Positions 6,367 through 8,710 of a stretch of DNA of 64,000 nucleotides are shown here, one piece after another. The stretch is from Pseudonocardia endophytica (GTDB taxonomy: Bacteria; Actinomycetota; Actinomycetes; Mycobacteriales; Pseudonocardiaceae). The notes beneath the pieces were generated by a model. The model saw nothing but the letters and a program-made list of their open reading frames with translations. It had not been told where the DNA came from and did not search any database. The position numbers were made by a program, and so were the translations under genes. Within the stretch, counting starts at the first letter, position 1, and each line of letters opens with the position of its first letter. Location of the stretch: NCBI RefSeq assembly GCF_004339565.1, contig NZ_SMFZ01000001.1, forward strand, positions 3,162,001 to 3,226,000. The letters are read 5' to 3'.

Positions 6367-6780
6367 ATGAGCGTCGCGGGCGTCGCCACGGTCCTGGTCG
6401 TCGTGCTCGTCGTCGGCGTCGTGGGTGTGCTGCTGCGCCGGCGGTCCGGACGGGTGCGCACGCCGTCGGACCGCGGGGTCGACGGCTGGTCGCTCGCCGG
6501 CGTGCAACCGGGCACCGACGACCGGTTCCTGCTGCTGCAGCTGTCGTCGCCGGTCTGCGCACCGTGCCGGACGACGGCGGGGGTGCTCGCCGGCATGGCG
6601 GCGGGCGATCCCGGCATGCGGCACGTCGAGGTCGACGTCGCCGAACGGGTCGACGTCGCCCGCGCGCTCGGCGTGATGAGCACCCCGACGACGGTCGCGT
6701 TCGGCCGGGACGGCGCCGAGCTCCTGCGGGTGTCCGGCGTGCCGAGCGCCGACGAGCTGCGGAGCGCGCTGGCCGGGTGA
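6367..6780 (+). CDS. Membrane-anchored thioredoxin-like protein
   Basis: Predicted thiol-disulfide oxidoreductase of 137 residues. An N-terminal membrane helix (about 4-23, rich in Val) is followed by a basic RRRSGR stretch and a thioredoxin fold with the redox motif CAPC, giving SSPVCAPCRTTAG, and the cis-proline segment GVMSTPTTVAF. The basic residues after the helix suggest that the catalytic domain stays on the cytoplasmic side, but this is uncertain. It starts 5 bases after the lmeA-like gene and is likely co-transcribed. The position matches thiX (Rv0816c) of mycobacteria, next to sulfur-metabolism genes. Substrate unknown. Confidence 0.85.
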   Translation: MSVAGVATVLVVVLVVGVVGVLLRRRSGRVRTPSDRGVDGWSLAGVQPGTDDRFLLLQLSSPVCAPCRTTAGVLAGMAAGDPGMRHVEVDVAERVDVARALGVMSTPTTVAFGRDGAELLRVSGVPSADELRSALAG

Positions 6781-6825
6781 CCGAGCGCGCACCCGCCGTC
6801 GGTGCCGTTGACCGGTCATTTCGGT

Positions 6826-6831
6826 TACGAT
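6826..6831 (+). promoter_or_regulatory. -10 element of the sulfur-operon leader transcript
   Basis: TACGAT fits the actinobacterial TANNNT -10 consensus. It ends 7 bases before the GTG of the leader peptide, so transcription should begin at or next to that GTG and the leader would be translated from a leaderless mRNA. TTGACC at 6808-6813 is too close (12-base spacing) to be a standard -35 partner. Confidence 0.55.
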
Positions 6832-6838
6832 CGCGCCC

Positions 6839-6913
6839 GTGAACTGGCCGCTGACCCGACGTCGCACAGTCGATCTGTGCCGTCTGGCCGGCTGCCTGTG
6901 TCGGGCGTCCTGA
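6839..6913 (+). CDS. Cysteine-rich attenuator leader peptide (24 aa)
   Basis: A 25-codon reading frame starting GTG encodes MNWPLTRRRTVDLCRLAG followed by CLCRAS. Cys codons are at positions 14, 19 and 21 (6878, 6893, 6899). The RRRxVDLCR core resembles small leader peptides known upstream of sulfur-metabolism genes in actinobacteria, where slow decoding of Cys codons under cysteine shortage raises translation of the genes behind. It is the first frame of the transcript carrying DUF4395, sulfurtransferase and DUF1416. It is too short for automatic gene calls and has no Shine-Dalgarno, in keeping with leaderless initiation. The peptide itself probably has no function. Confidence 0.75.
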   Translation: MNWPLTRRRTVDLCRLAGCLCRAS

Positions 6914-6957
6914 CCCCAGGACCTCCGCGGCGTCCTGCCGCGCCCCGACTCCAGGAG
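6907..6957 (+). promoter_or_regulatory. Four-segment translational attenuator controlling DUF4395 and downstream genes
   Basis: Four short segments can pair in two exclusive ways. Segment 1 is GTCCTG (6907-6912, overlapping the leader stop), segment 2 CAGGAC (6917-6922), segment 3 GTCCTG (6932-6937) and segment 4 CAGGAG (6952-6957), which is the Shine-Dalgarno of the 6965 gene. Pairing 1:2 (loop ACCC) plus 3:4 hides the Shine-Dalgarno; pairing 2:3 frees it. A ribosome paused at Cys codons 19-21 would cover segment 1 and favour 2:3, so low cysteine should turn the operon on. The pairings are visible; the regulation is inferred. Confidence 0.65.
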
Positions 6958-6964
6958 CGAGTTC

Positions 6965-7426
6965 ATGTCCGTCACGGACCCCGGACCCGTGCGCGCCGAG
7001 CTCCGGCTCGACCCACGTGGCGTCCGGTTCTCCGCCGCGGTGACGTCGGTCGTCCTCGTGCTGGTACTGATCAGCTCGAGCGGCTGGCTCGCGGCGGCAC
7101 AGGCCGTCGTGTTCGCCGTCGCCTCCGTCGCCGGTATGCGGTTCGCCCCCTACGGCGTCCTGTACCGGTTCCTCGTCGCGCCCCGGCTGGGTCCGCCCGC
7201 CGAGCGCGAGGACGCCGCCCCGGTCCGCTTCTCGCAGACCGTCGGGCTGGTCTTCACGGTCGTCGCCGCGGCCGGCTACCTGTCCGGGCTCACCGTGCTC
7301 GGACTCGTCGCCACGGCGTTCGCACTGGTGGCGGCCCTGTTGAACGCGGTCTTCGGCTTCTGCCTCGGCTGCGAGATGTACGCCCTGCTGGCCCGGCTGC
7401 GCGCGCCGCGCGCGTCCGGTGCCTGA
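6965..7426 (+). CDS. DUF4395 membrane protein
   Basis: Integral membrane protein of 153 residues and unknown activity. It has about four hydrophobic helices, two near residues 22-55 and two near 85-125, and ends with the DUF4395 hallmark FGFCLGCEMY, whose two cysteines probably act in thiol or sulfur chemistry. It is the first full gene behind the cysteine leader peptide and precedes the sulfurtransferase, with a 48-base gap, so a part in sulfur handling is reasonable. AGGAG lies 7 bases before the ATG and is the Shine-Dalgarno caught in the proposed RNA switch. Confidence 0.85.
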   Translation: MSVTDPGPVRAELRLDPRGVRFSAAVTSVVLVLVLISSSGWLAAAQAVVFAVASVAGMRFAPYGVLYRFLVAPRLGPPAEREDAAPVRFSQTVGLVFTVVAAAGYLSGLTVLGLVATAFALVAALLNAVFGFCLGCEMYALLARLRAPRASGA

Positions 7427-7474: not shown

Positions 7475-8311
7475 ATGAGCCGAGAGGACGTCCTCGTCAC
7501 CGCCGACTGGGCGGAGCAGAACCTGGACACCGACGGAATCGTCTTCCTCGAGGTCGACGAGGACACGACCGCGTACGACGGCGGGCACATCCCCGGTGCC
7601 GTCAAGGTCAACTGGACCGACGAGCTCCAGGACCCGGTCCGCCGCGACATCGTCACGAAGGAGCAGTTCGAGCAGCTGCTCGGCGCCAAGGGCGTGGGGC
7701 AGGACGACAAGGTCGTGCTCTACGGGGGCAACAACAACTGGTTCGCCGCGTACGCGTACTGGGAGTTCAAGCTCTACGGACACACGAACGTCGTCCTGCT
7801 CGACGGTGGTCGCAAGAAGTGGGAGCTCGACGGCCGCACGCTGACCACCGACGTCAAGGACCGGCCGGCGACGACGTACTCGGCGAAGGACGCCGACACG
7901 TCGATCCGCGCGTTCCGCGACGAGGTCGTCGACGCGATCGACACCAAGAACCTGGTCGACGTCCGGTCGCCCGACGAGTTCTCCGGGAAGATCCTCGCGC
8001 CCGCGCACCTGCCGCAGGAGCAGTCCCAGCGGCCGGGCCACATCCCGAGCGCGATCAACATCCCGTGGTCGAAGGCGGCCAACGAGGACGGCACGTTCAA
8101 GTCGAACGACGATCTCGCCGCCCTCTACAAGGAGGCCGGCTACGACGAGGGCCGCCCGACGATCGCGTACTGCCGCATCGGGGAGCGCTCCAGCCACACG
8201 TGGGTCGTGCTGCACGAGCTGCTGGGGCACGCCGACGTCAAGAACTACGACGGCAGCTGGACCGAGTACGGCTCGCTGATCGGCGTGCCGATCGAGCTGG
8301 GAGCGAAGTGA
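7475..8311 (+). CDS. sseA: Thiosulfate sulfurtransferase (rhodanese family)
   Basis: Two-domain rhodanese of 278 residues, the usual family length. The N-terminal domain (about 1-130, with GHIPGAVKVNW) is the inactive copy. The C-terminal domain holds the catalytic Cys233 in the loop CRIGERSSHTW, the same loop as mycobacterial CysA2/CysA3. It likely moves sulfane sulfur from thiosulfate or 3-mercaptopyruvate to an acceptor. The gene sits between DUF4395 and DUF1416 in the leader-controlled sulfur operon, and DUF1416 starts one base after its stop. No signal peptide is seen, so it is cytosolic. The exact donor cannot be read from sequence. Confidence 0.92.
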   Translation: MSREDVLVTADWAEQNLDTDGIVFLEVDEDTTAYDGGHIPGAVKVNWTDELQDPVRRDIVTKEQFEQLLGAKGVGQDDKVVLYGGNNNWFAAYAYWEFKLYGHTNVVLLDGGRKKWELDGRTLTTDVKDRPATTYSAKDADTSIRAFRDEVVDAIDTKNLVDVRSPDEFSGKILAPAHLPQEQSQRPGHIPSAINIPWSKAANEDGTFKSNDDLAALYKEAGYDEGRPTIAYCRIGERSSHTWVVLHELLGHADVKNYDGSWTEYGSLIGVPIELGAK

Positions 8312-8312
8312 C

Positions 8313-8612
8313 ATGTGTGCTGCACCCGACCAGGCCGTCGAGCTTCCCGCGGGGACGGACCTGAGCAAGGAGACGGTCCTGGCCGGACGCGTCGTCTCCG
8401 GAGGTGAGCCGGTCGGCGGGGCGTTCGTCCGCCTGCTGGACTCGACCGGCGAGTTCACGGCCGAGGTCGTCTCGTCGGCGTCCGGGAACTTCCGGTTCTT
8501 CGCCGCGCCGGGGAGCTGGACCGTCCGGGCGCTGTCGCGCTCGGGCAACGGCCAGTCCGAACTGAGCCCCGAGGGTCCCGGCCTGCACCAGACCGAGATC
8601 GCGGTGGCCTGA
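8313..8612 (+). CDS. sseC: DUF1416 protein (SseC-like)
   Basis: Cytosolic protein of 99 residues in the DUF1416 family, with a beta-sandwich-like pattern (ETVLAGRVVSGGEPVGGAFV, then SASGNFRFFAAPGSWTVRAL). It is nearly always found directly after the CysA/SseA-type sulfurtransferase in actinobacteria (SseC2 in mycobacteria). Its biochemical role is unknown; a partner or acceptor role for the sulfurtransferase is a guess from linkage. The ATG is one base after the upstream stop, so translation is coupled. A long perfect hairpin follows and probably ends the operon. One Cys is present (residue 2) and may not be catalytic. Confidence 0.85.
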   Translation: MCAAPDQAVELPAGTDLSKETVLAGRVVSGGEPVGGAFVRLLDSTGEFTAEVVSSASGNFRFFAAPGSWTVRALSRSGNGQSELSPEGPGLHQTEIAVA

Positions 8613-8630
8613 CCCGCACCCACCCCACCG

Positions 8631-8679
8631 AACGAGGGGGCCCTTCGGGCAACGTCATTGCTCGAAGGGCCCCCTCGTT
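8631..8679. repeat. Palindromic repeat family A, copy 1 (terminator-like)
   Basis: AACGAGGGGGCCCTTCG (8631-8647) pairs perfectly with 8663-8679. A G-T wobble and GCAA/TTGC extend the stem inwards to a CGTCA loop, about 22 bp in all. It lies between the end of the sulfur operon and the next gene and is symmetric, so it could stop transcription from either side. A second copy with the same loop but altered stem bases is at 62172-62224. Confidence 0.8.
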
Positions 8680-8710
8680 CACTGCGGGGTGCCGACTATG
8701 CTGGCGCGCC

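Follow-up and report, generated by a model that had tools for sequence, protein, structure and literature searches.

In the attenuation model ascribed to Canestrari and colleagues, a ribosome stalled on a leader reportedly blocks RNA structures that hide the ribosome-binding site, which is a model of Shine-Dalgarno (SD) sequestration. Cysteine leader peptides are known in mycobacteria, as the first-pass annotation of the present DNA had stated, and attenuation of this kind has been published there. A section of Shell et al (2015; PMC4633059) describes a conserved, cysteine-rich leaderless frame before cysA2/Msmeg_5788, from which the NCBIfam name leader_Ms5788A presumably derives. One passage of a review attributes cysteine-dependent attenuation to Canestrari et al (2020), and a passage in a 2026 paper says that these genes are regulated by translation attenuation. 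The relevant part of Seliverstov et al (2005; PMC1262725) did not commit itself to a mechanism and put forward Rho. In this study, we analysed a window of 64,000 nucleotides from Pseudonocardia endophytica, in which a short frame with three Cys codons precedes a sulfur-metabolism operon whose first gene encodes a DUF4395 protein. The leader is probably a cysteine attenuator of an already known kind, and what is new is mainly the pairing site in the RNA. It is likely to act on translation in response to cysteine, as attenuators of the Ms5788A kind do, and it very probably turns the operon on when cysteine is short.

Table 1. Features of the leader, the spacer and the operon, in positions of the window.
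Feature	Position	Strand	Basis
-10 hexamer TACGAT, leaderless-type promoter	6826-6831	+	TAnnnT at -13/-12 in 60/60 Pseudonocardia-type records
Leader frame, 24 aa, GTG start, TGA stop	6839-6913	+	Sequence; NF042933 and NF042934 matches
Possible stem-loop within the leader frame, core 6864-6880	6846-6896	+	RNAalifold consensus, 55 distinct gap-free 75-nt leaders
Cys14 codon TGC	6878-6880	+	TGC in 56/59 equal-length leaders
Cys19 codon TGC	6893-6895	+	TGC in 58/59 equal-length leaders, Ser in one
Predicted 5' strand of SD-hiding helix, window	6895-6905	+	Best and centroid fold, -68.6 kcal/mol
Cys21 codon TGT, likely sensing position	6899-6901	+	TGT in 59/59; mask simulation
Segment 1 (GTCCTG), predicted anti-SD over last codon and stop	6907-6912	+	UCC UGA:CAGGA(G) in most relatives; window 5 bp only
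Segment 2 (CAGGAC), window only, hairpin 1:2	6917-6922	+	1/41 loci; in best fold
GC-rich spacer hairpin CGCGGC-loop-GCCGCG holding segment 3 (GTCCTG, 6932-6937)	6926-6942	+	Best fold; similar in L013, L026, L027
Segment 4 (CAGGAG), SD of DUF4395	6952-6957	+	Sequence
DUF4395 protein, first regulated gene	6965-7426	+	PF14340, E 3.9e-45
Rhodanese (sulfurtransferase)	7475-8311	+	PF00581, E 5.7e-37, two matched stretches
DUF1416 protein	8313-8612	+	PF07210, E 3.1e-42

The leader frame (Table 1) reads GTG AAC TGG CCG CTG ACC CGA CGT CGC ACA GTC GAT, followed by CTG TGC CGT CTG GCC GGC TGC CTG TGT CGG GCG TCC TGA. Its Cys codons lie close to the leader end, as in Cys-responsive leaderless attenuators, although they are spaced and form no contiguous run, and TACGAT ends 7 nt 5' of the GTG. 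For comparison, we gathered 90 leader records, of which 77 were distinct, identical sequences being counted once and one locus in which no gene start was found (L141) being omitted; 60 were of the Pseudonocardia type, 42 with DUF4395 and 18 with rhodanese as the next gene. The start, set by peptide alignment, was GTG in all 60 of these, and it was preceded by TAnnnT, at -13 in 55 records and at -12 in the other 5; elsewhere within 60 nt upstream TAnnnT occurred only twice in total. No -35 element was recognisable, and a sigma-70 two-hexamer search gave no match at the leader promoter. These features suggest a leaderless-type start, with a transcript that may begin at the leader GTG. Both the 24-codon frame with its Cys codons and the hexamer at leaderless distance had been claimed in the first-pass annotation, and they were present as described.

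The leader peptide matched NCBIfam NF042933 (leader_Ms5788A) with 43.8 bits and an E value of 1.5e-11, which is 1.2 bits short of the curated cut-off of 45 bits, and it passed the cut-off of 27 bits of NF042934 (cis_reg_atten, putative leader peptide) with 30.8 bits, or 28.7 bits in the genome scan. A leader_Ms5788A match at E <= 0.01 was obtained in 62/62 genomes of the genus, the window's own counted, with a score above the cut-off in 8/62, and in 1/14 control genomes, where it was weak. An Rfam search over 6600-7200 returned a single chance match (E 6).

The conservation of the peptide raises the alternative that its product is a functional small protein or a self-arresting nascent peptide and not a mere codon sensor. 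The sequence WPLT(R/K)RR(A/T)VDLCR is almost fixed in the genus, with a pN/pS of 0.23 for codons 2-12, and LT(K/R)RRAVD.CR recurs in many other genera. However, some of the fixed codons fit the possible stem-loop within the leader frame, for which RNAalifold listed no two-sided changes at any pair among the 55 leaders, the pN/pS rises to 1.37 for codons 22-24, and RRHVDL and the final Cys are most of what the remaining leader matches of this genome have in common. We consider this alternative improbable and continue to regard the leader as a sensor that acts through its codons.

The Pfam matches of the three genes downstream confirmed the assignment of the first-pass annotation. The ATG of DUF4395 lies 7 nt past the end of its SD. 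Among the 80 best-matching DUF4395 loci listed, a leader was found in 63 (29/80 by a strict pattern and 34/51 of the remainder by a looser pattern that itself demanded TAnnnT before the start and Cys near the end; three loci in which the gene start was not found, L067, L074 and L114, were scored as misses in the looser search), and the gene order DUF4395-rhodanese-DUF1416 was also found in 63/80. Two Mycobacterium loci (L096 and L110) have the leader and all three operon genes. The DUF4395-rhodanese-DUF1416 operon is thus, as judged from these sequences, the usual context of the leader. The earlier suggestion that its use with DUF4395 may not be described therefore largely falls away, given these loci and the leader at cysA2/Msmeg_5788 in the section cited from Shell et al (2015; PMC4633059). 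The gene upstream of the leader, which ends at 6780, is thioredoxin-like (PF00085, E 1e-6). Directly past DUF1416, the window carries a long inverted repeat, GAACGAGGGGGCCCTTCG..CGAAGGGCCCCCTCGTTC (8630-8680), which is likely to be the operon end.

In predicted folds, the SD paired with the leader at a probability of at least 0.7 in 38/42 Pseudonocardia-type DUF4395 loci (the window counted), and the top partner base of the SD was within the last sense codon or the stop in 35/42. The usual contact in Pseudonocardia is thus modelled as that of segment 1 with segment 4 (1:4), in which UCC UGA, the last sense codon and the stop, pairs with the SD. The 1:4 helices reach 8-11 bp in the genus, for example, CUCCUGAG/CUCAGGAG and GGACUCCUG/CAGGAGUCU or UCC, and three loci whose SD is without AGGAG (L031, L116 and L127) have yet retained GGACUCC/GGAGUCC. 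The window has only UCCUG/CAGGA (5 bp), and its 1:4 duplex of -10.6 kcal/mol is the third weakest among 41 loci; as regards 1:4, it is an outlier in its genus according to these models. Strong leader-SD pairing was missing in four of the 42 loci (L010, L015, L134 and L137). Over all 59 DUF4395 records, including those from other genera, the mean SD pairing amounted to 0.71 for the leader, compared with 0.20 for the spacer or the gene. The predicted leader-SD contact is not universal, because the SD in Amycolatopsis-type loci pairs mostly locally. In the 18 of the 60 Pseudonocardia-type loci that have rhodanese first, the duplexes of the leader end with the rhodanese SD ranged from -6.4 to -14.0 kcal/mol with a mean of about -10.4 kcal/mol, being weaker than the DUF4395-class mean of -14.25 kcal/mol. 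Six of these loci (L034, L123, L125, L126, L128 and L129) retain CUCAGGAG about 20-27 nt past the leader stop, and an AUG after it (UUG in L034) opens a short frame at the DUF4395 start site, so that the switch seems to outlive the DUF4395 gene in them.

We further compared native sequences with randomised ones, leaving L015 out of the duplex, recoding, segment and covariation counts (it is without GGAG, and its assigned start looks wrong). The terminal Ser codon was TCC in 35/35, compared with a background share of 0.37 among 609 Ser codons. The mean unpaired probability of the SD was 0.064 in native leaders and 0.240 in synonymous-codon shuffles of the leader, the native value being lower in 39/41 loci (Wilcoxon 1.7e-11, a value that is too small since the sequences are related); in the window, it was 0.20 compared with 0.34, with 0/40 shuffles as low. 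Leader-end/SD duplexes averaged -14.25 kcal/mol in native and -13.18 kcal/mol in swapped combinations (41 loci, with 5/5000 permutations reaching the native value among these related sequences). In a fixed register, 1:4 pairing over 40 distinct rows was 0.681 as against 0.671 in swapped sets, 258/2000 of which reached the native value, and two-sided changes at 1:4 were not in excess (1263/2000 swapped sets reached native); covariation was not above that of swapped rows because the helix core is almost invariant. Sliding one side of 1:4 by 1-3 positions lowered pairing to 0.33-0.49, as a shared consensus alone would also do. Thus, the predicted folds agree with sequestration of the SD by leader RNA, and compensatory changes contribute no support to it.

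The same pairing bears on the possibility that transcription is attenuated between leader and gene, by intrinsic or Rho-dependent termination, and that a stalled ribosome relieves this. The spacer is C-rich, and Rho was weakly suggested for mycobacterial cys leaders in the part of Seliverstov et al (2005; PMC1262725) that deals with them. However, the leader-gene spacer has no U tract and no match to an intrinsic terminator, the sole terminator-like site being upstream of the leader, so that the terminator hairpin and U tract before the gene that mark an intrinsic-terminator attenuator were not found, and in most Pseudonocardia-type loci the partner of the leader is the SD. We therefore judge attenuation of transcription to be quite unlikely here and prefer attenuation of translation at the SD.

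The RNA of the window itself (6839-6970) folded at -68.6 kcal/mol with a z of -4.54, and 0/200 shuffles were as good; its 3' part alone (6908-6970) was unremarkable, with a z of -1.07 and 30/200 shuffles as good. The best fold contains the 1:2 hairpin and a hairpin of 6926-6931 with 6937-6942 that encloses segment 3. In the helix that would hide the SD, 6895-6898 (CCUG) is joined to the CAGG of the SD (6952-6955) and 6900-6905 (GUCGGG) to 6944-6949, so that the predicted partner of the SD is the Cys19-Arg22 codons. Leader bases 6839-6845 pair with the DUF4395 start-codon region (6960-6966) in the same fold. Forcing other pairings in the full leader cost 9.8 kcal/mol for 3:4 or 1:2 plus 3:4, 10.0 kcal/mol for 1:4 and 8.1 kcal/mol for 2:3; that 1:4 is here no cheaper than 3:4 slightly lowers our confidence in the attenuator. 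In mRNA from 6912 on, 2:3 and 3:4 were nearly equal, 3.6-3.7 kcal/mol above the optimum. The fold favoured for the window by these models is neither of the two states in the first-pass annotation nor the genus-typical 1:4 contact.

In those two states, 1:2 with 3:4 would hide the SD, and a ribosome on segment 1 would permit 2:3 and leave the SD free. All four segments are there, and 1:2 and 2:3 are helices of 6 bp, but 3:4 has just 5 bp with a G-G mismatch at one end. When the 38-nt spacer was shuffled 20,000 times with its dinucleotides preserved, exact CAGGAC..GTCCTG arose in 0.015% of the shuffles, and 0.31% satisfied a relaxed criterion that asks for 6 nt complementary to the leader end and 5 nt complementary to the SD, in tests that were picked post hoc. 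Among the loci examined, segment 2 occurs in 1/41 (the window itself) and segment 3 in 3/41; both are missing from the three nearest relatives (L013, L026 and L027), whose leader DNA is 81-90% identical to that of the window. The repeats are real yet not conserved among relatives. The proposed folding with and without the leader upheld 1:2, which is in the best fold, but not 2:3 or 3:4, which were not optimal even in mRNA from 6912 on. Although the presence of every segment, the place of 1:2 in the best fold and the rarity of the exact pattern in shuffles speak for this switch, it is very unlikely, since 1:2 plus 3:4 reaches -58.8 as against -68.6 kcal/mol for the best fold, 2:3 and 3:4 reach -16.1 and -16.0 as against an optimum of -19.7 kcal/mol from 6912 on (3.6-9.8 kcal/mol above the optimum, depending on the hidden 5' sequence), and two exclusive folds conserved in relatives, as in trp-like four-segment attenuators, were not found.

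The effect of a ribosome on the preferred leader-SD pairing was simulated by masking a footprint that extends 15 nt from the P site in both directions. Averaged over 42 loci, the openness of the SD was 0.06 in free RNA, 0.07 at Cys14, 0.10 at Cys19, 0.38 at Cys21 and 0.38 at the stop; in the window, it was 0.20 in free RNA, 0.01 at the start, 0.09 at Cys14, 0.38 at Cys19, 0.38 at Cys21 and 0.42 at the stop. The rise from 0.20 to 0.38 in the window is small and counts against the attenuator. With all mRNA hidden up to 6880, 6892, 6901, 6906 and 6911, the values in the window were 0.02, 0.49, 0.74, 0.63 and 0.61, respectively. The simulation places the sensing step of the window at Cys19-Cys21, because openness rises from 0.02 through 0.49 to 0.74 as upstream mRNA is hidden. 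In Amycolatopsis-type loci, masking at the Cys codons changed little. Openness is as high with the ribosome at the stop as with it at Cys21, so that the on/off contrast would depend on dwell times. A ribosome waiting at Cys21 would tend to uncover the SD under either pairing scheme, which suggests translational attenuation. The earlier proposals are supported in that a cysteine-sensing leader would act via the first gene's SD and that a ribosome paused near Cys21 would cover segment 1, which overlaps the leader stop.

From the frame, its conservation, the leaderless signature, the SD pairing and the codon bias, all of which were computed, we infer a transcript start, translation, a cysteine response and an on/off direction as follows. 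The mRNA would begin at the GTG, and the leader would be translated without an SD. When Cys-tRNA is ample, the ribosome would pass through the leader, terminate at UGA and depart, and the leader end would then pair with the DUF4395 SD, keeping the operon low. When Cys-tRNA is scarce, the ribosome would wait at Cys21, the last Cys codon, and cover the pairing partner of the SD, that is, the last codon and stop in the genus and the Cys19-Arg22 codons in the best fold of the window; the SD would then open, and DUF4395, rhodanese and DUF1416 would be produced.

The codon at the sensing position was TGT in every equal-length leader (Table 1). In the background, TGT made up 7/163 Cys codons in downstream genes (all 90 records, duplicates included) and 12/119 Cys codons in window frames. 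In the own genome, cis_reg_atten was matched 36 times at E <= 1, and 12 of these matches exceeded the cut-off, whereas 6/14 control genomes had a weak match at E <= 1 and none above the cut-off. Twenty of the 36 (L155-L174) were taken as loci for codon counting, and 19 were readable (L173 was not); the sensing Cys was TGT in 18/18 readable leaders with Cys there, the window's counted, against a TGT background of 4-10%. One leader (L159) has further TGC behind the sensing TGT. Another (L169) has Ser AGT, one base different, where other cis_reg_atten leaders carry the final Cys TGT, and is possibly a sensor that lost its codon. Many of the own-genome leaders have the form RRHVDL..SALCR. Of ten N-terminal pieces downstream of them, five matched a Pfam family (NlpA lipoprotein, sugar/MFS transporter, AhpC/TSA, TauD and OsmC, the last just under the cut-off), and Cys leaders may thus form a set that spans the genome. 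In a family-level scan, 25/29 loci were readable (L193, L196, L197 and L200 were not; L176 and L199 belong to the window's genus), and the last Cys was TGT in 16/25 and TGC in 9/25, two leaders (L175 and L191) having TGT at the usual position and a later TGC. Outside the genus, TGT at the sensing position thus appears as the majority and not the rule. Codon 11 third base versus codon 22 second base, considered as a cause of TGT, gave no clear pattern.

We tentatively propose, with rather less confidence than for the attenuator as such, that in Pseudonocardia UCC UGA serves as the anti-SD, so that termination and release of the ribosome themselves would switch the operon off, that the sensing Cys position retains the wobble-read codon TGT in many leaders of one genome, and that the species of the window uses a helix slightly further upstream, within the Cys codons themselves. 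No report of a UCC-UGA anti-SD or of a TGT rule was seen among the listed results of literature searches. If the proposal is true, the sensor would also rest on the choice of codon. The fixed TGT, set against its 4-10% background, makes the tuning of an amino-acid attenuator by codon identity directly testable, and the leader stop with the SD is a concrete pairing that can be tested cheaply. Furthermore, cysteine attenuation, tested in mycobacteria, is now extended to Pseudonocardia and, by sequence, its reach includes other Actinomycetota sharing the same operon.

Among described systems, the uORFC-8-2 motif before cysS in Rhodobacterales is similar in that its Cys codons are thought to sense Cys-tRNA, but unlike the window, it uses an intrinsic terminator and transcription attenuation, according to a section of PMC8632094. 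The actinobacterial cys leaders, as set out in part of Seliverstov et al (2005; PMC1262725), resemble the window in their short frames, Cys codons near the stop and absent terminator hairpin. Compared with Ms5788A and the polycysteine leaderless sORFs of mycobacteria, the window leader differs in having three spaced Cys codons and no Cys run, and unlike in Ms5788A, the anti-SD would mostly be the last codon and stop in Pseudonocardia and the Cys19-Arg22 codons in the best fold of the window. It agrees with these sORFs, as far as they are described in the cited section of PMC4633059 and by NF042933, in being a Cys leader with a leaderless-type start, and it is like the Ms5788A-type mycobacterial loci L096 and L110 in the motif LTKRRAVDLCR and in the operon of DUF4395, rhodanese and DUF1416.
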